DNA of 33,344 bases from Bacteroidia bacterium. GTDB lineage: Bacteria; Bacteroidota; Bacteroidia; AKYH767-A; 2013-40CM-41-45. Each line of letters begins with the position of its first letter. Within the stretch, counting starts at the first letter, position 1. Made by a program: the position numbers and the translations under genes. Of the stretch, positions 1,407-30,725 are shown in pieces. The stretch spans positions 1-33,344 of the forward strand of contig JADZBN010000010.1 in the NCBI GenBank assembly GCA_020852075.1, given 5' to 3'. The notes below the pieces were generated by a model. It saw only the letters and a list, made by a program, of their open reading frames with translations. It ran no database searches and was not told where the DNA came from.

Positions 1407-3935
1407 TCAGGGCCGGGCGGATATCAGAAACATCTGGGAATTATTTTCAATAAGACTGTAATCCGCAGATTCGACTAAGTCATCACCCGTTACATCATCC
1501 ACGTAATACGCAAAAATAAAAAGTTGAGATGAGTTTTCCACCTGGCTGTAATCACCCGATTCAATTACTCCATCCTGAGTTACATCCCCGCTGTAAATGC
1601 AATACGCCCCCCCTATATTTTTCATGTTATTGCCGTAGGCTTTATTTGCAGCTGTGGTAAAATCATACGAAATATTGCTGCTGCTGAAGGTTACAGGAAA
1701 GGCACTCCAGGTTTCCAGTGAATTACGGTGTTTGAAAACAATGTAATACGACAGGCCCAGCACGGTGGATGGGAATGCAAAACTTCCCATTCCGTCAGTC
1801 ATCAAAACATTCCTGTCTGTATAGGCAATGGAATTAGGTGCAGCGACATTGGCAAGTGCAACCGTTACCGTATCGCATAAGGCTATGTGGCCGCCCGGAT
1901 CTGCAACAGCAACCATCTGACCGCCTCCGAGGTAGAATCCCTGAATAAATGCTTTCAGATTCAGGACTGCGGCTGGTGCGGAAATCGTAAGTACTGCACC
2001 CGAAGTGGTCTGACCATCAGGGTTGGTGACCGTAACCGTCTGTAAGCCCTGACTGGCACCATTGGTATTCAGGGTAAGTGTTATTTGTGTCGGGTTGTCA
2101 AATTGCACACCGGTAACCGTTACCCCTCCGCTTACGCTCACTCCAAGCCGGTCGGGGAAACCGGTTCCTGGATCAAAAAAACCGGAAGAGTTTACCTGGG
2201 TTCCTGTAATTACAACCGACACCGATCCCAATCCGCTGCTGACAGTGGAGGGAGTTGCGCTGGTGACATCCGCCGGCGGCGGAGCCATAAGTTTTATGGC
2301 GCGTACCATCCATGAATTATTTGCATTGCAGTATTCCTGAAACGCCCATACATCCTGATCATTTTGCGGATCCACAGTAAGCTGGGAGTAATCACCCCAT
2401 CGCTGGGGAGTGCTTGACTGAACATTGTAATTACTCGAGGAAGTCTGTGCAACCACCGGTGCGTCTGTAATACCTGAAACATCCGTATTGAGATGGCCCG
2501 AAACGGATATCTGGGCATGGCTGTTCGTTCCTGCGCTGCTGCAGCCCAGAAACATGTGACCCTGCCCGTTGGCTGCTACGGAACCAAACCAGTAACCCAA
2601 AGGATTACTGGAAGCGGGATCATATAAGGTTCCGGATTGCAATAAAGCAGGGGTGGTGGTAAGATTGCCTACCTCATACCACCGGACACCATTTCTGTTT
2701 CCGGAAGAACTCGATACCCCCGAAGAATTTACCTCATTTGTATGTGCAGTCCACAGGGAAGACACACCTGTCAGTTTGTTTTTCTTGATCATGGCAGCAT
2801 ACAAACGATCGTCTATGGCATCAAGAGCTTTGGTAGAACCCTGTGCAGGTTGATTCTGGGGATAAACAGTAGTGGGCACGGTAATGTTCAGGTTGGCTGA
2901 AAGAACCGGTGTACCTCCGGGGTCTGAAATCCGTTTCATAACCAGTTTTCCATAGGAGGCATTATCCACTCCAATCAGGTATCCTTCGGTGGCAGCCGGG
3001 TCATCATTGTCCACACCCTGCGGGGTATAAATACCTGCCCCGGAAGAGGTGCAAAGTTGCCTGAAGACTGTTACTACCAGGCTCCCGCTAAGCAAAGCCG
3101 ACTTCCTGATAATGAATGCCGAAGTGCCGATGTAGGTGGCTCCGCCCGCAAACATATTGACGCCGATATACAGGGCATTGGCATCCAGTCCGAAAGTATC
3201 GTAATCAGCCAGGGCACCGGTATCAGCATTGGGTACTGTGCCTACCTGGTCCTGGGTAAACTGAAAGAAAGTAAAACTGGACTGGCTGGTAATTACTGAA
3301 CCTGAACTAACCGCGATCATAACCCTGTTGGGAGTAGAGACATTGATCATGGTCACAAACCATCTGCCTGATAAACGATCGTAGCGTACATGGGGATCGC
3401 TGCTTGTACTTCCGTCTCTGACAGAATTGAAAAAAGTATTTGTAGTTACATCGAGCGGCCCAAGAACCCCTTGTTTGCTGAATACCCGGATTCTGCCATT
3501 TGAGGCAACCAAAATTTGAGAGGGACCTGCCGCCCCATTGGAGTCGGGTGGGATATATCCCGAGGACCCCAGGTCGTTTGAATCAAAACCGGTGCTCACT
3601 GTATAGGTGGTGGCGGGAATGGCAAAGCGTCCGATTACCTGGTTGGGATCGGGAGCGGGCCACCGGCTTACCCGTGGAGAAAGTTTGTTGCGTTTGGGCC
3701 GTCGCACCTTATTTTCTTCTCCTTCTTCGGTCTTTGTTTCCATGATTTTATTCGGATCAAAGACGAAAGGATGGGCCGCTTCACGTGCCATGATTTGGGA
3801 TACGGTTTCCTGAATCCCCGGATTTCCCAGCCAGGGTTTTCCGATGGTGATACCGTTCGCATTGGCCAGTTGTGCATATCCCTGCCAGGAGAACAGGAGA
3901 AAGGCACACAGGATGAGGATTCGTTTCTGATACAT
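1407..3935 (-). CDS. Large secreted protein with IPT/TIG-like domain and C-terminal dockerin-like Ca-binding repeats
   Basis: 842 aa; signal peptide MYQKRILILCAFLLFSWQGYAQ; TIG-like segment VSSGLGSVSVVITGTQV...TVTNPDGQTTSGAVLTI; C-terminal pair GDVTQDGVIESGDYSQVENSS / DDVTGDDLVESADYSLIENNS. Confidence 0.8.
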   Translation of the reverse strand: MYQKRILILCAFLLFSWQGYAQLANANGITIGKPWLGNPGIQETVSQIMAREAAHPFVFDPNKIMETKTEEGEENKVRRPKRNKLSPRVSRWPAPDPNQVIGRFAIPATTYTVSTGFDSNDLGSSGYIPPDSNGAAGPSQILVASNGRIRVFSKQGVLGPLDVTTNTFFNSVRDGSTSSDPHVRYDRLSGRWFVTMINVSTPNRVMIAVSSGSVITSQSSFTFFQFTQDQVGTVPNADTGALADYDTFGLDANALYIGVNMFAGGATYIGTSAFIIRKSALLSGSLVVTVFRQLCTSSGAGIYTPQGVDNDDPAATEGYLIGVDNASYGKLVMKRISDPGGTPVLSANLNITVPTTVYPQNQPAQGSTKALDAIDDRLYAAMIKKNKLTGVSSLWTAHTNEVNSSGVSSSSGNRNGVRWYEVGNLTTTPALLQSGTLYDPASSNPLGYWFGSVAANGQGHMFLGCSSAGTNSHAQISVSGHLNTDVSGITDAPVVAQTSSSNYNVQSSTPQRWGDYSQLTVDPQNDQDVWAFQEYCNANNSWMVRAIKLMAPPPADVTSATPSTVSSGLGSVSVVITGTQVNSSGFFDPGTGFPDRLGVSVSGGVTVTGVQFDNPTQITLTLNTNGASQGLQTVTVTNPDGQTTSGAVLTISAPAAVLNLKAFIQGFYLGGGQMVAVADPGGHIALCDTVTVALANVAAPNSIAYTDRNVLMTDGMGSFAFPSTVLGLSYYIVFKHRNSLETWSAFPVTFSSSNISYDFTTAANKAYGNNMKNIGGAYCIYSGDVTQDGVIESGDYSQVENSSQLFIFAYYVDDVTGDDLVESADYSLIENNSQMFLISARP

Positions 3936-9354: not shown

Positions 9355-10365
9355 TTAAATCTGGAGACCAACCACCAGAACATCGTCCACCTGTTCAAAT
9401 TTTCCTTTCCAGTTTTCAAAATAGGCTTCAAGGGTTTGCTGCTGCTGGTACATAGTACTTTCATGAATGGACAGCACCAGATCCTTGAATTTTTTAGTCA
9501 TTATCTTTTTCCCGTCAGGCCCGCCAAACTGATCGGCATATCCGTCCGAAAACAGGTATAACCGGTCCCCCGGCTGAAGGTTTATGGATTGTATTGAAAA
9601 GTTGCGGTCTTCGTCCTGATTAAATCCACCGATAGGCAGCTTGTCGGGTTTTATCGAATCCGCCTGGTATTTCCGGATCATGTATAACGGACGGTTCGCT
9701 CCGGCAAATTCTACCAGCATTTTACCGAAGTCAAAACAACATAGCGCAATGTCCATACCGCCGTGTGATGCGGTTTCTTTTTGACGGAGGGCATCCACAA
9801 TTCCATCGTTGAGTTTTTTCAGTATCGTGTCCGGTCCACCAATGTCCTTTTGACCGGTAATCTGGTGAAGGAGGGAACTTCCGACCATACTCATGAAGGC
9901 ACCGGCAACGCCGTGTCCTGTACAATCCGCAACCGCCAGGTAGATTTTATCATTTACCTGTTCAAAAAAATAAAAATCTCCGCTGACAATATCTTTTGGC
10001 TTGTAAAGGACAAAAGCGTCCGTAAAGTGTTTTTTAAGGCTTTCCGTTTTTGGCAGAATGGCGTACTGAATATTTCTTGCGTAATTCAGACTGTCAATAA
10101 TTTCCTCATTCTGCTGTGAAATACTGATGTTTTTTCTTTCCAGTTCCCATTTTTGCATCATTACCTGATAGGACCTTTCACTGACTTTTTCGGAAAGCTT
10201 TTTATTTTCATCCCGGAAACGTTTATTTGCCCAACGGAAATACACCCAGCCGCCAATAAGCACAAACAGGTTAGTAAAAATGAGAAACCAGGTAATGGTG
10301 TCACCAAACAGTACCGGTTCGGGTCCGGTCTGACGAAGCAGGCAAACAGTACTGATCAGATTCAA
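9355..10365 (-). CDS. SpoIIE/PP2C-family serine/threonine phosphatase, membrane-anchored (SiaA-like)
   Basis: GDFYFFEQVNDKIYLAVADCTGHGVAGAFMSMVG and LFSDGYADQFGG motifs; one N-terminal TM segment plus coiled coil. The start at 10365 is TTG, so the exact start is uncertain. Confidence 0.87.
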   Translation of the reverse strand: MNLISTVCLLRQTGPEPVLFGDTITWFLIFTNLFVLIGGWVYFRWANKRFRDENKKLSEKVSERSYQVMMQKWELERKNISISQQNEEIIDSLNYARNIQYAILPKTESLKKHFTDAFVLYKPKDIVSGDFYFFEQVNDKIYLAVADCTGHGVAGAFMSMVGSSLLHQITGQKDIGGPDTILKKLNDGIVDALRQKETASHGGMDIALCCFDFGKMLVEFAGANRPLYMIRKYQADSIKPDKLPIGGFNQDEDRNFSIQSINLQPGDRLYLFSDGYADQFGGPDGKKIMTKKFKDLVLSIHESTMYQQQQTLEAYFENWKGKFEQVDDVLVVGLQI

Positions 10366-10569
10366 GTTGTGGATGTATGGAAATGAGGATGCAGAACCTG
10401 CTGAATGGATAAGTTCACGAAAATAGTATTTATGGTGTAAGTTTCACATTTTTTCCTGTACAGGCCCTATAGTGAAGCCCTTGGTTGGTTCCAGGATAGC
10501 CCGGCCGGAGGGGACAACAGGTATGATTTCCTCGCGGGAGCCACAATTTCAGGAGTTAAAATGAATTTT

Positions 10570-10577
10570 TATTTTTG
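10570..10577 (+). promoter_or_regulatory. Candidate -7 element TATTTTTG upstream of the SiaB-like gene
   Basis: Matches TAnnTTTG, 13 nt before the ATG at 10591. Confidence 0.45.
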
Positions 10578-10590
10578 AACGGAATCTGTA

Positions 10591-11148
10591 ATGGGCATGC
10601 AAACCGAAGACAGCATTTATGGTTTATTACATAAAATGGAGGAGGACAGGATTATTCTCAGTTTTAAAGGTCAAATCACACCCGAACTACTTGCTTCTGT
10701 TTACAGGATCATGGAGGTCAGGATGAACCATGAGAAGGAAGAGCCCCGACGGAAAAAAAAATTCTACCATATCCTGGTGGAATGCCTGCAAAATGTCTAT
10801 CATCACATGGGCAGCCTGAAGGAAGAAACCCGGGAAAGGGATAATGCGGCTATCTTTATGATTGGTTACGGTAAGGGCGCAAGTTATAGAATCATTACCG
10901 GCAATTTCATCCAGAATAAAAATGTGGAAATCCTGAAATCACGTATCGAACATATTAACAGCCTCTCACCTGAAGCATTGCGTCAGTATTATGTGGAGCA
11001 GCTTGCCGGGACAGAACTTTCGGAAAAAGGCGGTGCCGGCCTGGGACTGATTGACATGGCACGGAAGTCAGGCCAGAAACTGGAATACAGTTTTCATGAG
11101 GTTTCATCCACCCTTTCCTTTTTTAGTTTATCCGTTACCATATATTAA
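10591..11148 (+). CDS. SiaB-family protein kinase (GHKL-like fold)
   Basis: 185 aa; N-box-like VECLQNVYHH, G-box-like EKGGAGLGLIDMARKSG; directly followed by a SiaC-like gene. Confidence 0.8.
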   Translation: MGMQTEDSIYGLLHKMEEDRIILSFKGQITPELLASVYRIMEVRMNHEKEEPRRKKKFYHILVECLQNVYHHMGSLKEETRERDNAAIFMIGYGKGASYRIITGNFIQNKNVEILKSRIEHINSLSPEALRQYYVEQLAGTELSEKGGAGLGLIDMARKSGQKLEYSFHEVSSTLSFFSLSVTIY

Positions 11149-11159
11149 AACACCCCTGC

Positions 11160-11537
11160 ATGGACCCACTGGTTATTGAAGAGAGCATTAAAACCCCGTC
11201 TGTTTCTTTTGATCCCTCCTCCGGAGTCCTTGTCATTAAGGGCAAGTCCATACCGGAAAACTCCCTTGAATTTTACCGGCCTGTTTTTGAATGGCTGGAT
11301 AACTATTCACATACTCCGGCCTCTTCCACGGAAATTCAGGTCCGGCTCGATTATTTTAATACGAGCTCCTCAAAATGTATGCTGGATATTTTCAGAAAAC
11401 TGGAAGCAGTCCATAGCGGTGGCACCGGAAAGGTAAAAGTTTGCTGGTACTATGAATCGGAAGACGAGGATATGATGGAAGCGGGCGAAGATTATAAGGC
11501 CCTGGTAAAAATCCCGTTTGAACTCATTAGCATTTAG
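11160..11537 (+). CDS. SiaC-family regulatory phosphoprotein (DUF1987)
   Basis: 125 aa; VRLDYFNTSSSKCMLDIFRKLE contains the family-typical YxNTSS segment; C-terminal WYYESEDEDMMEAGEDY. Confidence 0.85.
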   Translation: MDPLVIEESIKTPSVSFDPSSGVLVIKGKSIPENSLEFYRPVFEWLDNYSHTPASSTEIQVRLDYFNTSSSKCMLDIFRKLEAVHSGGTGKVKVCWYYESEDEDMMEAGEDYKALVKIPFELISI

Positions 11538-14500
11538 TCAGGGTTTGTCTGTTTTTTTTCGCCTTGTTGATACGGATGAAATGATTCTTCTCAGAGCATC
11601 CGTTCTCAGGGTGATATAAAGCAGGAAGGTCATCAGCCATACCATACACAGGTTTACCACAAATGTGTCAGTAGTTTTTCCGAAAAGATTTTTTACTGGT
11701 GCGAAAAAAATACTTCGTATCCACTGTTGCCCCGGTTGTATTTTGTAAACGGGTTCATATCTCTGGATAATATGATTATTGTAAACCGATATCCGTTCGG
11801 TTGTATTGCTGTTTCTCACCATTTCATCAAGGCTCTCATTCTGATATTCCTGTTTCAGTATATTGAATGAATCCAGTTGTTGTTGGCCGGAAGTGAGAGC
11901 ATTAATCTTACGTTCCTTTTTATCACTGGCTTCAGCATACATCCTGATGTAATATTCCTTAACTGAATTAAGAAAATCCCTGGCCAGATCTGTTTGAGGA
12001 AGGGTCATCCGGTCCATCATTTGGGCAATGGAATGACTGTTAAAGGAAGACGGCAACACCAGCGCCGGATCATTCAGCTCATTTTTTACCAATACCAAAA
12101 CATCCCTTACGGAGTCTGGCGGATGTCCCTCTGTGAGGAGACGGCTGGCTTTGTCAATGCGCTCCCGCATTACCGGCAACCACCAGTCCTTACGGTAGGT
12201 CGCCTGACTCATAACCGCATCCATGGGGAAGAATAACTTTTCAAACGGATTATCCCGGAATTGTGCGACTGATAATGCTTCAAAGGCCCAACGTGAGGCC
12301 ATGATATCGCCGATAAACGGTACCTCACCCTGACGGGTTATGACGGGATTGAGTTTTTCAAAACGTACAATTACCCCGCTCAGCAGGATTTGCGGAATTA
12401 TCAGAAAGGGTATGAGGATGTAAATGGTAACCACGGAATCAAGAGCGGAGGAAATATTCAGTCCAAGGAGATTGGCAAAGCAGGAGATGGAAAACAATAC
12501 CAGGAAGTAGGTTCCCCACATATCATGGATGCCCAGAATTAGATTCCCGATCAGGATAAAGGACATTGCCTGAATGGCAGAGAGGAAAAACATCAGGGTG
12601 ATTTTTGCAAAGAGATAGCTGTTCCGGCTAAGGTGTAGGAATTTTTCCCTCTGAAGGATTTTTCTGTCCCGGATGATTTCTTCCGCACTTACCGAAAGCC
12701 CGAGAAACAGGGATACAATCACGCAGATAAAAAGCCAGGCAGGAATATTCGGGTTGTCACTGAAGATGTACTTTTCTCCCGGGCGTGAATACCTGAGGAT
12801 ACATGCAAGTATTCCCGACAACAGAGGAGCTTCCAGCAGGTTTATCATCAGATATTGCCGGTTACTCAGTTTACTCATGAAGTCCCTGCTGAAAAATGTC
12901 CGGAACTGTTTAAGGATACCGGCTTTTTTTACGTGAGGAACCTCATGGGTCTGGCCGTCTTCTGTCGAGGACTCCTTAGTGGCGTTATTTATAAAAATGC
13001 GGTTCCATTCTTCCGGCGTGATCCTTCTGTTTTTTGTCTGATTCCCGAATTCATCTACTTCTTTCAGTTCAATGATATTGAACAATTGTTCGGGATTAAT
13101 GTTTCCGCATGCCGGGCATTCCCCCTGATCGGCATCCGCATAGCCGATCTGCTTCCTGAAATAAATGAGTGAATCGGGTGCATTTCCGAAATACACAGGA
13201 TAACCGCCCGTATCAAGTATCAGAAGCCGGTCAAACAACCTGAAGATATCCGAAGAGGGCTGATGGATAACTACGAAAACCAGTTTGCCTGTCAGGGCAA
13301 GTTGCTTCAGCAGATCCATAACATTTTCCGCATCCCGGCTGGACAATCCCGAAGTGGGTTCATCAACAAACAGGATGGAAGGCTCCCGGATCAGTTCCAG
13401 GGCGATGTTCAGGCGCTTCCTCTGTCCTCCGCTGATGGTTTTATTGAGTGGATTTCCTACCCGGAGGTCTCTGGTTTCCGTAAGACCCAGTGATTCCAGT
13501 GTGTCCATCACCTTCCTGGATATCTGCAGATCATCAAGATCACCGTAAACCAGCCTTGTATTATAAAAAAGGTTCTGGAATACAGTCAGCTCTTCGATCA
13601 GCAAATCATCCTGCGGTATATTGCCAATCAGGCCGTCAGATTTTTCATGATTTTCATACAGGTCAGTCCCATTAATAAAAATGTTGCCTGATGAAGGACG
13701 GGCTGTGCCATTCAGAACATTCAGCAGGGTGGATTTCCCTGCGCCACTGCTTCCCATGACGCCGATCATTTGCCCGGAACCTGCACGGAAGGTCAGACTG
13801 TGCAACCCCTTCTTCCCGTTTTTGAAGGTGAATTCAAGTTCCCGGGTTTCAAAACGGATATCCGTTTTTTCGCCGCCTTCCATAAAACAGCGAAGGATAT
13901 CACTGAAATATAACGGTTGTATTTTTTGCCCCCTTAATACGGCTCCCTGCGCAAAAACCGTTACCACACCGGCCAAAACCGGTTGCCCGTTGACTGTAAG
14001 GGACTCCCTGCCCGAATACCTGAGGAAAAATATTCCTGCCCTCCGGATATATACAAATACCAGTTGTCCGTCGGTATCTGCATGCCTGAGAAATTTCGCA
14101 CGACCTGATGAGCTTACAAGCTGACTGCCTGCAACAAGAACCTGATCCGAGTCTAATTTCTCCGTCTGTAAAACAGTTTCGGCCAGTGCCAGGCAAATGG
14201 TGTGATCTTCAGGGCCGATGGTAAAAACGGAAGAAACGGTATCAAGAAATTCCCGCTCAGGCGCAGTCATTTCTTCATCGGAACTGTTCATGAATTGCAC
14301 CAGTCGCATGAACACAATGTACTTTTGCCGCGTATTGAGTTCCTTATTGATTTCCGTACATATCCTGAGCGCCTTTACCGAACTGACGGCAATCTTTTTT
14401 CGCGTTCTTGCCGGATCATCTACGCCCTGCAGCGCGGCAAGTTGTCCGTCAAATACATCCAGGTATTCTGCAACCCGATGCAGGCTGATTTGCTGCTTCA

Positions 14501-14600
14501 GAAATTGTTCCACCAGCACACGGCTTTTCATTGTGAGCCGTTCCAGGCTGGCGCCAATGGCAAAAAGTTGTAATAAGGCCCGTAAAATCCGTTCACTCAT
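11538..14600 (-). CDS. ABCG-type ABC transporter with fused ATPase and permease, and N-terminal TerB-like and FHA-like regions
   Basis: 1020 aa; Walker A GVMGSSGAGKSTLLN, signature ISGGQRKRLNIALEL, Walker B SILFVDEPTSGL, H-loop VVIHQPSSD; several TM segments in the C-terminal half; N-terminal TerB-like helical stretch (about aa 85-145) and beta-rich SGRESLTVNGQPVLAGVVTVFAQGAVLRG (about aa 175-235). Confidence 0.85.
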   Translation of the reverse strand: MSERILRALLQLFAIGASLERLTMKSRVLVEQFLKQQISLHRVAEYLDVFDGQLAALQGVDDPARTRKKIAVSSVKALRICTEINKELNTRQKYIVFMRLVQFMNSSDEEMTAPEREFLDTVSSVFTIGPEDHTICLALAETVLQTEKLDSDQVLVAGSQLVSSSGRAKFLRHADTDGQLVFVYIRRAGIFFLRYSGRESLTVNGQPVLAGVVTVFAQGAVLRGQKIQPLYFSDILRCFMEGGEKTDIRFETRELEFTFKNGKKGLHSLTFRAGSGQMIGVMGSSGAGKSTLLNVLNGTARPSSGNIFINGTDLYENHEKSDGLIGNIPQDDLLIEELTVFQNLFYNTRLVYGDLDDLQISRKVMDTLESLGLTETRDLRVGNPLNKTISGGQRKRLNIALELIREPSILFVDEPTSGLSSRDAENVMDLLKQLALTGKLVFVVIHQPSSDIFRLFDRLLILDTGGYPVYFGNAPDSLIYFRKQIGYADADQGECPACGNINPEQLFNIIELKEVDEFGNQTKNRRITPEEWNRIFINNATKESSTEDGQTHEVPHVKKAGILKQFRTFFSRDFMSKLSNRQYLMINLLEAPLLSGILACILRYSRPGEKYIFSDNPNIPAWLFICVIVSLFLGLSVSAEEIIRDRKILQREKFLHLSRNSYLFAKITLMFFLSAIQAMSFILIGNLILGIHDMWGTYFLVLFSISCFANLLGLNISSALDSVVTIYILIPFLIIPQILLSGVIVRFEKLNPVITRQGEVPFIGDIMASRWAFEALSVAQFRDNPFEKLFFPMDAVMSQATYRKDWWLPVMRERIDKASRLLTEGHPPDSVRDVLVLVKNELNDPALVLPSSFNSHSIAQMMDRMTLPQTDLARDFLNSVKEYYIRMYAEASDKKERKINALTSGQQQLDSFNILKQEYQNESLDEMVRNSNTTERISVYNNHIIQRYEPVYKIQPGQQWIRSIFFAPVKNLFGKTTDTFVVNLCMVWLMTFLLYITLRTDALRRIISSVSTRRKKTDKP

Positions 14601-14790: not shown

Positions 14791-15642
14791 TTAACCTATG
14801 AGGTTGGTACGCACCTTAGCGACTGCGACGGATAACTGTTCGAGTTTATCCCTTGTCAGGTCTGCAGGGGAGGTAAGGGTGTCATACGATTTTTTCAGTT
14901 CTTCCACCCCGGCCAGAAGCTTGGCAGTTTCGGGATTTTTCTTCAATTCAGTGAGCAGGCTGATCAGATTTTCAACATATAGCTTTTGATTGTAAATCTT
15001 TTCAAAAACAGGTTCGTTTGCCGGTGTCCTATTCAGGTTTTTCATAAGTTCAAGGCTCAGGTATTGCACCTCTATAATGGCACCTGCAAGAACGTGTGTG
15101 GCATCCAGCAGCCGGTTGTTGTTTCGAAGATAGCTGTCTGTTTCTGAATAAGCCCGGTCAATCATTTTTACCAGTGAATCCCTGTTCCCTGAATTTTCCT
15201 GGAAGCTTTCCGTAAAGGCATCAAAGGTTTCCTGTACATTCAGCCTTTCAGCCACCTTCCGGGTTGTTGCATAGTAACTCAGGAGATCCTGATTTTGGCC
15301 GTAGAAGGCAGCGTATGCCATATCAATACCATACACTCCGTAATTGATGGCTTTTTTAAAGGTAGTATTATAACGGCTCTCGTTAGTGGTTGGATTCAGC
15401 AAATCTTTATTAAAGGGAACATTATTCTGGTAAATCGCGCTGATGATCTCCATGGGAGAAGGCAGATTGGCGATGGTATAGAAAAATTTAAAATCAATCA
15501 GCTCCTTGGTTTTTGCGGACATGGTATCCTGTATCATTCGTGTGGTATCCGTAACCTGTTCGTTATTTTCCTGAGATGAATTCGAACAGGAGGTGGTTGT
15601 CAGCACAGCAGGAACCAGCGCAATCAGAAAATATTTTTTCAT
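14791..15642 (-). CDS. Conserved hypothetical helical lipoprotein
   Basis: Lipobox signal MKKYFLIALVPAVLTTTSCSNSS; helix-rich remainder. Start placed at internal ATG 15642 rather than 15687. Confidence 0.75.
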   Translation of the reverse strand: MKKYFLIALVPAVLTTTSCSNSSQENNEQVTDTTRMIQDTMSAKTKELIDFKFFYTIANLPSPMEIISAIYQNNVPFNKDLLNPTTNESRYNTTFKKAINYGVYGIDMAYAAFYGQNQDLLSYYATTRKVAERLNVQETFDAFTESFQENSGNRDSLVKMIDRAYSETDSYLRNNNRLLDATHVLAGAIIEVQYLSLELMKNLNRTPANEPVFEKIYNQKLYVENLISLLTELKKNPETAKLLAGVEELKKSYDTLTSPADLTRDKLEQLSVAVAKVRTNLIG

Positions 15643-27648: not shown

Positions 27649-28230
27649 ATGTTTTTAGAAAATTTAAAGACCCAGGGCAGGCGACACGGCCATATTGAGG
27701 TAATTTGTGGTTCTATGTTTTCCGGCAAGACGGAAGAACTTATACGGAGGCTGAAGCGGGCCAGGATTGCCAACCAAAAGGTTGAAATTTTTAAACCCCG
27801 GATGGATAACCGGTTTCATGCTGAAAATGTAGTTTCTCATGATGCCAATGCCATCGCTTCCACGGCTGTGGATACGTCTTCTGCCTTATTGATCCTTGCA
27901 AATACCGTAGATGTGGTGGGAGTGGATGAGGCACAGTTTTTTGATGATGGATTACCGGAAGTATGTCAGGATCTTGCAAATGCAGGTGTCAGGGTAATCG
28001 TTGCCGGCCTTGACATGGATTTTCAGGGGGAGCCGTTCGGACCCCTGCCGAAGTTGATGGCTATTGCCGAATATGTAACCAAGGTGCATGCAATCTGTAT
28101 CCGCTGCGGGAATCTTGCCAATTACAGCTACCGGACGGTTGCGGATAATACCCGGATTCTGGTTGGTGAAAAGGAAAGTTACATTCCTTTATGCCGTACT
28201 TGTTATAATGAAGAAAGTGGTAAAAACTGA
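27649..28230 (+). CDS. tdk: Thymidine kinase
   Basis: [40 protein letters not shown]-loop; [13 protein letters not shown]-terminal CIRCG / CRTCY zinc cysteines. Confidence 0.95.
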
Positions 28231-30725
28231 TGTGTCCCTCCAGGATAGGTACTGATTATACAATTCAGAAAATTGCAGACATTATCAGCGGAAAACTGAC
28301 CTGCAAGGCTCCTGGTCAGGTTCTGATTGATGAACTTCTGACGGATAGCAGAAAGGTTACACATCCTGATACCGCACTTTTTTTTGCCATTTTCGGAGAA
28401 AGACATAATGGGCATTCATTCATCTCTGAATTATTCCGGAATGGAGTGAGAAATTTTGTCATTTCCGAATTCAGAGAAGAATGGGAAAATTTCAATGCAA
28501 ATTTTATCCGGGTTGATGATGCACTGGAGGCATTACAGGAAGTCGGTGGTTACCACAGAAGCCGGTTTACAATTCCGGTAGTGGGTATTACCGGAAGTAA
28601 TGGAAAAACCATTGTCAAAGAATGGTTGTACCAGTTACTTCAGTCGGACAGAAACATTGTCCGGAGTCCGAAAAGTTATAACTCCCAGGTGGGAGTGCCA
28701 CTTTCCCTGTGGCTGATAAGGGACAATCATCAGCTTGCTCTTATTGAAGCAGGTATTTCCCAGCCGGGGGAAATGCTGAAACTCGAAAAAATTATCCGCC
28801 CGACTATCGGGATACTTACCAATATTGGATCTGCTCACGATGAGAATTTCCACAGTGTTTCGGAAAAGTTATCGGAGAAGCTCAGATTATTCCGGCAGGT
28901 GTCATCTCTTATTTACTGCAGGGATCAGCAGATCATTCAGGATGCGGTTGACGCGTTGAAGAAAGAAAATCCTTCTGTTGTGCTTTTTGCATGGTCGCGA
29001 AAATCAAAGGCAGACCTGCAGGTGGGACGTATTACCCGCTCATCCGATGAAACTGAAATACAGGCCGTATATCACAATCGGTTTATCAGGATCCGGATTC
29101 CCTTTACAGATGATGCATCGGTTGAAAATGCCATTCATTGCTGGGCATTTATGCTGTCTGTTGATGTGGAACAGGATTATATTGAGAAGCACATGACATT
29201 TCTCAGCCCGGTTGCAATGAGGCTGGAACTTAAAAACGGAATTAATCATTGTTCGGTAATTAACGACACGTACAACAGCGATATAGGGTCCCTTACCATT
29301 GCACTGGATTTTTTGAACCAGCAGAAGCAACATGAAAAACGGACAGTAATCCTCTCCGATATACTTCAGAGCGGAAGGGACGAAGAAAACCTTTATCGTG
29401 AGGTATCAAACCTCCTGATCGCAAAAAATATCAGCCGTATCATTGGTATAGGGGAAGCCCTGACCAGGCAAAAGGATGTGTTTCCCCATTCTTCAAAATT
29501 TTATCCTGATACAGAACATTTTCTCAGGGAGTTTACTCCCGGAAATTTCTCGAACGAGACCATATTGTTGAAAGGCGCAAGGCCCTTTGGGTTTGAAAAA
29601 ATATCAAAGGTCCTTCAGCAAAAGGCCCATGAAACAGTTCTCGAGATCAACCTGAATGCCCTGGTTCATAACCTGAATTATTACAGGTCAAGGCTCCGTC
29701 CCGATACCCGGATTATGGCGATGGTAAAGGCGGCGTCTTACGGCAGCGGCAGTCAGGAAATAGCCAGCGTACTGCAATTCCACAGAGTGGATTACCTTGC
29801 CGTGGCGTATTCTGATGAGGGAGTGGAACTGAGAAGGGCGGGCATAACATTGCCCATCATGGTGATGAACCCGGAATTGCAGGGACTTGATGCCATGTTG
29901 AGAGAAAAACTGGAACCTGAAATTTATAATTTCAGGTTGCTGGGCCAGCTTCATGATATGCTGAACCGGTATGATGGAGAACCATTTCCTGTGCATATTG
30001 AAATTGATACAGGTATGCACCGCCTGGGTTTTGACGAATCAGAGATGAATGAACTCATCGTCCGGCTTGGAAACAATAAAAAAATCAGGGTGCAATCGGT
30101 CTTTTCACATCTTTCTGCAAGCGATGAAGCAGAACACGATGGATTCACCCGGTTGCAGATTGAACGGTTTACACAAATGTCGGGACAGATATGTAATGCA
30201 TTTGATTATCCGGTTCTCAGGCACCTGCTTAATTCGGCGGGAATTCTCAGATTCTCCGAGGCTCAGTTCGATATGGTTCGGCTGGGTATCGGAATGTATG
30301 GCATTGCCGCTACCTCTCATGAACAACAGCAGTTGCAGCAAGTGGCTACCCTGCGCTCCGCAATTTCACAGATTAAAAATGTTCCGGCCAATGAAACGGT
30401 AGGTTACAGCAGGAGGGGTGTATTAAAACGGGATAGTGTCATTGCAACCGTGGCCGTTGGTTATGCCGATGGGGTAAACCGGAAAATGAGCAATGGTACA
30501 GGAAATTTGATGGTAAACGGGATACTGGCGCCTGTTGTTGGAAATGTGTGTATGGATATGACGATGATAGATATTACCGACATTCCTGCAAAGGAAGGAG
30601 ACGAGGTAATCGTATTTGGACCGGATTATCCTGTTACGGAGATTGCCAGGTCTCTCGGCACCATCCCCTATGAAATTCTCTCAAATGTAAACCAGCGTGT
30701 CAAGAGAATTTACTTTTATGAATGA
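28230..30725 (+). CDS. Bifunctional UDP-MurNAc-tripeptide:D-Ala-D-Ala ligase / alanine racemase (MurF-Alr fusion)
   Basis: N-terminal Mur ligase VVGITGSNGKTIVKEW and NDTYNSDIGSL; C-terminal alanine racemase MAMVKAASYGSGS PLP-lysine motif, GMHRLGFDE, GNVCMDMTMIDI. Confidence 0.94.
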   Translation: MCPSRIGTDYTIQKIADIISGKLTCKAPGQVLIDELLTDSRKVTHPDTALFFAIFGERHNGHSFISELFRNGVRNFVISEFREEWENFNANFIRVDDALEALQEVGGYHRSRFTIPVVGITGSNGKTIVKEWLYQLLQSDRNIVRSPKSYNSQVGVPLSLWLIRDNHQLALIEAGISQPGEMLKLEKIIRPTIGILTNIGSAHDENFHSVSEKLSEKLRLFRQVSSLIYCRDQQIIQDAVDALKKENPSVVLFAWSRKSKADLQVGRITRSSDETEIQAVYHNRFIRIRIPFTDDASVENAIHCWAFMLSVDVEQDYIEKHMTFLSPVAMRLELKNGINHCSVINDTYNSDIGSLTIALDFLNQQKQHEKRTVILSDILQSGRDEENLYREVSNLLIAKNISRIIGIGEALTRQKDVFPHSSKFYPDTEHFLREFTPGNFSNETILLKGARPFGFEKISKVLQQKAHETVLEINLNALVHNLNYYRSRLRPDTRIMAMVKAASYGSGSQEIASVLQFHRVDYLAVAYSDEGVELRRAGITLPIMVMNPELQGLDAMLREKLEPEIYNFRLLGQLHDMLNRYDGEPFPVHIEIDTGMHRLGFDESEMNELIVRLGNNKKIRVQSVFSHLSASDEAEHDGFTRLQIERFTQMSGQICNAFDYPVLRHLLNSAGILRFSEAQFDMVRLGIGMYGIAATSHEQQQLQQVATLRSAISQIKNVPANETVGYSRRGVLKRDSVIATVAVGYADGVNRKMSNGTGNLMVNGILAPVVGNVCMDMTMIDITDIPAKEGDEVIVFGPDYPVTEIARSLGTIPYEILSNVNQRVKRIYFYE

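Follow-up and report, generated by a model that had tools for sequence, protein, structure and literature searches.

The stretch studied here, hereafter the window, comprises positions 1 to 33,344 of contig JADZBN010000010.1 from a Bacteroidia bacterium (GCA_020852075.1) and holds signalling genes related to the SiaABC phospho-switch of Pseudomonas aeruginosa next to the gene of an ATP-binding cassette (ABC) transporter. A gene for a SiaA-like PP2C (SpoIIE) phosphatase (9355-10365, minus strand; 336 aa from a TTG start; PF07228, E 4e-19) is divergent from two plus-strand genes, which encode a SiaB-like GHKL-type protein kinase (10591-11148; 185 aa; PF19788, or DUF6272, E 2e-41) and SiaC, a STAS-like phospho-switch protein of the DUF1987 family (11160-11537; 125 aa; PF09345, E 1e-42). 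Facing them lies the gene of an ABCG-type half-transporter (11538-14600, minus strand; 1020 aa; ABC_tran E 2e-30, then ABC2_membrane E 4e-20), whose stop codon touches that of the SiaC gene with a gap of 0 bp (..TTTAG directly followed by TCAGGG..). Profile matches to Pfam and NCBIfam place all four genes exactly where a first-pass annotation of this DNA had put them, and the abutment of the two stop codons that it described is borne out; its gene list stopped short, overlooking the TerB-like and FHA-like N-terminal domains of the transporter as well as the gene directly upstream of it (14791-15642, minus strand, counted from its ATG), which encodes an all-helical lipoprotein with a lipobox cysteine and is the transporter's partner gene. 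We consider it likely that the window carries a SiaABC partner-switching module with the ABC exporter, not a diguanylate cyclase, as its output.

The SiaA-like phosphatase aligns with the solved PP2C domain of P. aeruginosa SiaA (6k4e, E 3e-32), and the Asp motifs of its metal site are intact. Against the NCBIfam SiaA equivalog it reaches 178 bits (cut-off 700) over the PP2C part only, falling below the full-length cut-off because the sensor part is missing: the protein has one predicted N-terminal membrane helix, as read from its sequence, and no extracellular sensor domain. The kinase is a member of the NCBIfam SiaB family NF038262 (158.8 bits, cut-off 85) and aligns with chain A of 6kko, with N box and G box (GAGLGLIDMARKS) kept, while Thr68 of the window SiaC, in the motif FNTSSSK, falls exactly on Thr68 of P. 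aeruginosa SiaC in the 6kko/6kkp alignment. A SiaA-type PP2C with its metal site, a SiaB kinase with both boxes and a SiaC with Thr68 together identify a SiaABC module, in which reversible Thr68 phosphorylation with phospho-dependent partner binding is putative. Across the loci surveyed SiaB usually adjoins SiaC, often with SiaA as well, and the sensor parts of SiaA differ, from the single transmembrane (TM) helix of the window to a Reg_prop/Y_Y_Y beta-propeller in locus L078 and a dCache-HAMP-GAF-PAS arrangement in family f9.

These signalling proteins also occur in other architectures. The beta-propeller and Y_Y_Y sensor sits on the SiaA-type phosphatase at L078:945-4241; hybrid histidine kinases commonly have this sensor architecture. 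A 625-aa open reading frame (ORF) adjoining SiaC in another class of the phylum (L052:8162-10039) matches both the SiaA and the SiaB profiles and is likely a phosphatase-kinase fusion. Double-length SiaB-like proteins of 366-382 aa adjoin SiaC at L253:3595-4692 and in L254, L257, L259, L268, L269 and L271; the one that was scanned contains two DUF6272 stretches, and their genes often face one or two SiaA-like genes.

The transporter carries its nucleotide-binding domain (NBD) ahead of its transmembrane domain (TMD) in one chain of the ABC2_membrane type, as ABCG-type exporters do, and its best NCBIfam match is TIGR00955, an ABCG-type pigment permease. AlphaFold2, Foldseek and the TerB profile divide the N-terminal part into a TerB-like domain (aa 1-140) and an FHA-like domain (aa about 150-240), after which come the NBD (aa 262-480), TM helices, a periplasmic domain (aa about 790-955) and a last TM helix, the limits of these TM and periplasmic parts being read from the alignment. 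In the AlphaFold2 model of aa 1-255 (predicted local distance difference test, pLDDT, 86.9) the first domain is helical and the second a beta domain. TerB (PF05099) is matched in the N-terminal domain by 52 of 59 relatives, with a best E value of 6e-9; the window protein, all-helical there in its model, does not reach the cut-off of this profile. For the beta domain the best Foldseek matches are FHA domains, with probabilities up to 1.0 but E values of 0.06 and above and partial coverage. The link to FHA comes from fold comparison only: no Pfam FHA match was found in the window protein, a sequence profile of the domain retrieved no FHA chain, and the canonical phosphothreonine-binding residues (GR, SxxH) are not evident; the domain appears degenerate.

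SiaC lies within two genes of this ABC gene in 22 families of the class (f1, f8, f9, f59, f60, f62, f64, f68, f72, f74, f77, f78, f79, f80, f83, f86, f87, f88, f91, f100, f108 and f115). The first-pass annotation had named an adjacency confined to this genome or its close relatives as a finding that would refute its reading; the pairing instead spans these families in both convergent and operon-like gene orders. The commonest order, seen at 35 loci with gaps of -11 to 401 bp, is that of the window, SiaB-SiaC convergent with the ABC gene. Two further orders run in one direction: SiaA-SiaB-SiaC-ABC-lipoprotein (f9 and f64) and SiaC-lipoprotein-ABC, sometimes followed by SiaA (f59, f62, f74, f78 and f83). 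Two samples give an unbiased rate. In the window's taxonomic order, searched completely in all 42 available genomes, 9 of 16 SiaC genes adjoin this ABC, in three families; and a set of 78 ABC loci, retrieved on sequence similarity only, has SiaC no more than two genes away at 15 of them (binomial probability about 2e-15 at a generous chance rate of 1%). A further 80 ABC-centred regions, 25 of them with SiaC, spanned families and were partly picked with adjacency in view, so this count is not usable as a rate. The stop codons of SiaC and ABC overlap by 11 bp in L045, L152 and L160 and by 4 bp in L068, L069 and L119. With the stop codons touching or overlapping in several families, the 3' ends of the convergent transcripts would be antisense to each other.

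The two proteins also occur together at the level of whole genomes. Among 395 genomes of the class, 213 encode SiaC and 199 the N-terminal domain of the transporter: both are present in 190, SiaC only in 23, the transporter only in 9 and neither in 173, an odds ratio of 159 that is inflated by phylogeny. The association holds within the single family f60 (both in 4 genomes, one alone in 1 and 1, neither in 18; p 0.002). In a separately drawn, phylum-wide sample, 6 of 396 genomes encode the transporter, including all five SiaC-bearing genomes of this class; the sixth is without SiaC. In the samples studied, the transporter is a feature of this class. Chance adjacency was rejected on these neighbourhood and co-occurrence results. 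Genomic hitch-hiking or a shared regulon, in either case without contact between the proteins, would sit well with a commonest order that is convergent rather than operonic, and yet it leaves unaccounted for the two operon-like orders, the co-occurrence and a relaxation confined to one domain where SiaC is missing, described below; we give it almost no credence.

A surface of the transporter that SiaC contacts would be expected to erode in genomes that have lost SiaC. For each domain we calculated the share of family-conserved positions that a sequence retains, leaving that sequence out of its own reference. In 11 transporters from SiaC-less genomes, which by our judgement come from some five separate lineages (f60, f13, f64 and, more than once, f1), median retention in the TerB-like domain is 0.61 (0.39-0.75), as against 0.90 in 43 SiaC-adjacent transporters and 0.98 in 55 whose genomes encode SiaC elsewhere. 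The NBD, by comparison, stands at 0.88 without SiaC versus 0.94 (adjacent) and 0.96 (elsewhere), and the difference of TerB minus NBD separates the groups (p 4e-7). Losses are concentrated in helix 4 (K68, S71, S74, V75, K76 and L78, plus T121), while fold-core positions are retained. In the window, helix 4 carries the motif KKIAVSSVKAL (aa 68-78; 14367-14399, minus strand), whose conservation tracks SiaC partnership and which we propose as the SiaC docking site.

The motif, K..S..SVK.L over residues 68-78, is near-invariant when SiaC is a partner, S74 and V75 being present in 100% of transporters with SiaC, and each of the seven scored positions, T121 included, survives in only 0-2 of the 11 SiaC-less proteins. 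Scores accordingly run from 0 to 2 of 7 without SiaC and from 4 to 7 in all 43 SiaC-adjacent transporters; of the 55 with SiaC elsewhere, only two score low, both of them second paralogues from genomes with two transporters and one SiaC. The motif is also lost in six genomes whose SiaC proteins all fall in separate, mostly tandem-SiaC clades. Three f9 genomes each encode one SiaC and three ABC paralogues: the SiaC-adjacent paralogue alone keeps the motif (6-7 of 7), and the six others score 0-1 at equal NBD conservation.

The same comparisons bear on the second N-terminal domain. FHA domains read phosphothreonine, and one could suppose that the FHA-like domain, supported as such by Foldseek, recognises phospho-SiaC so that phosphorylation recruits SiaC, as FHA I of Rv1747 recognises phospho-Rv2623 (PMC5549992). 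This is quite improbable: conservation of the domain hardly depends on SiaC, being equal among the f9 paralogues, undiminished in the tandem-SiaC comparison and slightly lower in SiaC-less genomes; the typical phosphate-binding residues are those noted above as not evident; and phosphorylation prevents, rather than promotes, binding of SiaC to SiaD (PMC8457831).

A different possibility is that SiaC belongs to the transporter permanently, as a structural subunit, its phosphorylation being incidental. Such a part is played in the MlaFEDB complex by MlaB, a STAS protein that stabilises its own ABC ATPase and for which phosphorylation of Thr52 was not shown (PMC7367683). We regard this as very improbable here, given that Thr68 is present in 48 of 48 ABC-linked SiaC proteins (other SiaC: Thr in 50%, Ser or Thr in 91%) and that SiaB is usually encoded next to SiaC, often with SiaA too.

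Phylogenies separate the paralogous systems. In the SiaC tree, all convergent SiaC proteins and those of the SiaC-lipoprotein-ABC type fall in one clade (96/90), which also takes in orthologues from genomes where SiaC and ABC have drifted apart; the operon-type SiaC proteins of f9 and f64 fall outside it, as does one f83 gene, at weak support. The SiaC-lipoprotein-ABC type forms a clade in both trees (100/96, six SiaC; 99, seven ABC), and genomes such as G411, G454 and G478 carry both types, each ABC paired with its own SiaC. Tandem-SiaC modules, in which two SiaC genes lie about 1 kb apart, occur in five families (G472, G504, G477, G584, G650 and G719; L317-L334).

A cyclase encoded elsewhere in the genome was considered as the output and rejected, as no GGDEF domain was found. 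The search covered 26 SiaC-bearing genomes including that of the window, which is 85% complete, and returned nothing in 25 and a 49-residue fragment in one, against detection in 8 of 14 control genomes. An output of the SiaD type is therefore not available in those 25.

How such a switch might work can be sketched from P. aeruginosa, where SiaABC turns on the diguanylate cyclase SiaD: unphosphorylated SiaC grips the helical stalk of SiaD by its helices alpha2 and alpha3, Thr68 being wedged between helices, an interaction that phosphorylation blocks (PMC7278518; PMC8457831). By analogy with that grip on the stalk, unphosphorylated SiaC would dock on the transporter's TerB-like N-terminal domain, making its main contact with helix 4 (aa 65-80), and would alter the ATPase cycle, most likely turning export on. 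SiaB would phosphorylate Thr68 at this interface and so release SiaC; the SiaA-like phosphatase would remove the phosphate on a signal and restore docking, and the exporter would work together with the envelope lipoprotein. We think it reasonably probable that SiaC docks directly on the TerB-like domain and gates the exporter through reversible Thr68 phosphorylation.

Direction is a separate matter from partnership. Flux-sensing ABC transporters pass signals to two-component systems, and the transporter could likewise be a sensor, with TerB-bound SiaC reading its state or flux and relaying this to another, unlinked target. Neither the linkage nor the TerB result tells direction, and many genomes carry several SiaC proteins. 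We nevertheless find it unlikely: no other gene is so constantly linked to this SiaC clade, and the sensor parts upstream vary while the transporter stays constant, in keeping with inputs that are swappable and an output that is fixed. The transporter is thus probably what the SiaC switch controls. The view of the first-pass annotation that the transporter, rather than a cyclase, is the output draws support from the recurrent adjacency, the missing GGDEF domains and an N-terminal constraint tied to SiaC. This support is genomic and evolutionary, and through comparative genomics the transporter output is well supported; direct binding of SiaC, its sign and the exported substrate are inferences.

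Several observations pull the other way. The convergent order of SiaC and ABC is no operon. Most SiaC paralogues in SiaC-rich genomes do not adjoin the ABC gene, and 17 SiaC-bearing genomes of other classes in the phylum-wide sample are without this transporter; on these two grounds SiaC must have other outputs too. Of the ten other genomes of the window's family, five keep the transporter without any SiaC, so it can function on its own. Since transporters are kept without SiaC in several lineages, SiaC would act there as a regulator and no essential subunit. The helix-4 motif emerged post hoc, the test on f9 paralogues being the only one with new data, and the lineages entering the rank tests are not fully independent. 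Finally, helix 4 has no sequence match to the stalk of SiaD: searched against the Protein Data Bank (PDB), a profile built on aa 60-110 retrieved no SiaD chain, and a SiaD-like SiaC-binding motif in the transporter was rejected on that result. No SiaC-ABC gene fusions were seen among the ORFs scanned.

A homologue of the lipoprotein gene adjoins the ABC gene at 71 of 80 loci in one set and 62 of 78 in the other. Its lipobox Cys20 is invariant and AlphaFold2 models it as all-helical (pLDDT 88.4); it belongs to no Pfam family, and Foldseek gave no convincing PDB fold match (E 0.4 or worse, low TM-scores). In most lineages a secreted protein of about 140 aa (p140; L078:9622-10074 and homologues), likewise without a Pfam family, is encoded between lipoprotein and ABC; its gene is absent from the window's family. 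At ten loci (L151:13130-15379, L099, L102-L104, L149, L162, L175, L177 and L185) the ABC gene is immediately followed by one for a patatin-like phospholipase; those whose label reaches that rank are Flavobacteriales or Vicingaceae. This neighbour is a weak hint at a lipid substrate, and the exporter may carry a lipid or a lipid-linked envelope component.

Elsewhere in the window, a Mur ligase and an alanine racemase are fused in one 831-aa ORF (28230-30725), a fusion that is to our knowledge ordinary, and an 842-aa ORF on the minus strand (1407-3935) is without any Pfam match.

SiaC (DUF1987) is widespread, and the one output of which we know is a diguanylate cyclase. A transporter output would explain what SiaABC does in Bacteroidia genomes without a GGDEF cyclase, and it would be the first transporter among SiaC outputs, under a STAS-like regulator with its own kinase and phosphatase. 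It would also make TerB-like domains receivers of the phospho-switch, possibly for other SiaC paralogues too, with the helix-4 motif as an immediate mutational target. The transporter and its lipoprotein make up an uncharacterised system that roughly half of the Bacteroidia genomes sampled possess. No report tying SiaC/SpoIIE partner switching to ABC transporters in Bacteroidetes was found in the open-access literature, the only papers covered, which is no proof of novelty.

Compared with SiaABCD of P. aeruginosa, the PP2C phosphatase, the SiaB kinase and Thr68 of SiaC all align with the solved proteins, whereas no SiaD or GGDEF protein was found in the window's genome and the constant neighbour is an ABC transporter. 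The window SiaA is short, encoded divergently and without a sensor part; strict SiaABCD has a periplasmic sensor domain with HAMP and a single siaABCD operon, neither of which is seen here, and for want of SiaD the module is not SiaABCD in the strict sense. HsbA-HsbD and BgrV (BrgV)-BgrR, as they are cited in PMC8457831, resemble it in that a STAS protein modulates a binding partner by a partner switch, and differ in that the output is a diguanylate cyclase. Rv1747-PknF of Mycobacterium tuberculosis likewise combines an ABC exporter, an N-terminal FHA-type domain, Ser/Thr phospho-control and a proposed lipid substrate (PMC5549992), but its kinase is of the eukaryotic type and it involves no SiaC, while in the window the FHA-like domain appears degenerate, is at most a putative phosphothreonine reader of the Rv1747 type and is preceded by a TerB-like one. 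In MlaB-MlaF of the Escherichia coli phospholipid transporter MlaFEDB, a STAS-like protein with a Thr at the interface acts on an ABC transporter; MlaB, for which no kinase is known, binds to the NBD (PMC7367683), whereas the window has kinase and phosphatase genes alongside, dependence on SiaC lies in an additional TerB-like domain, and the transporter is ABCG-type with fused NBD and TMD rather than MCE-type, hence not of the Mla type. MlaB has raised the question whether phosphorylation is a means by which STAS-type proteins regulate ABC transporters, and the window offers a natural system, equipped with both a kinase and a phosphatase, in which to ask it.

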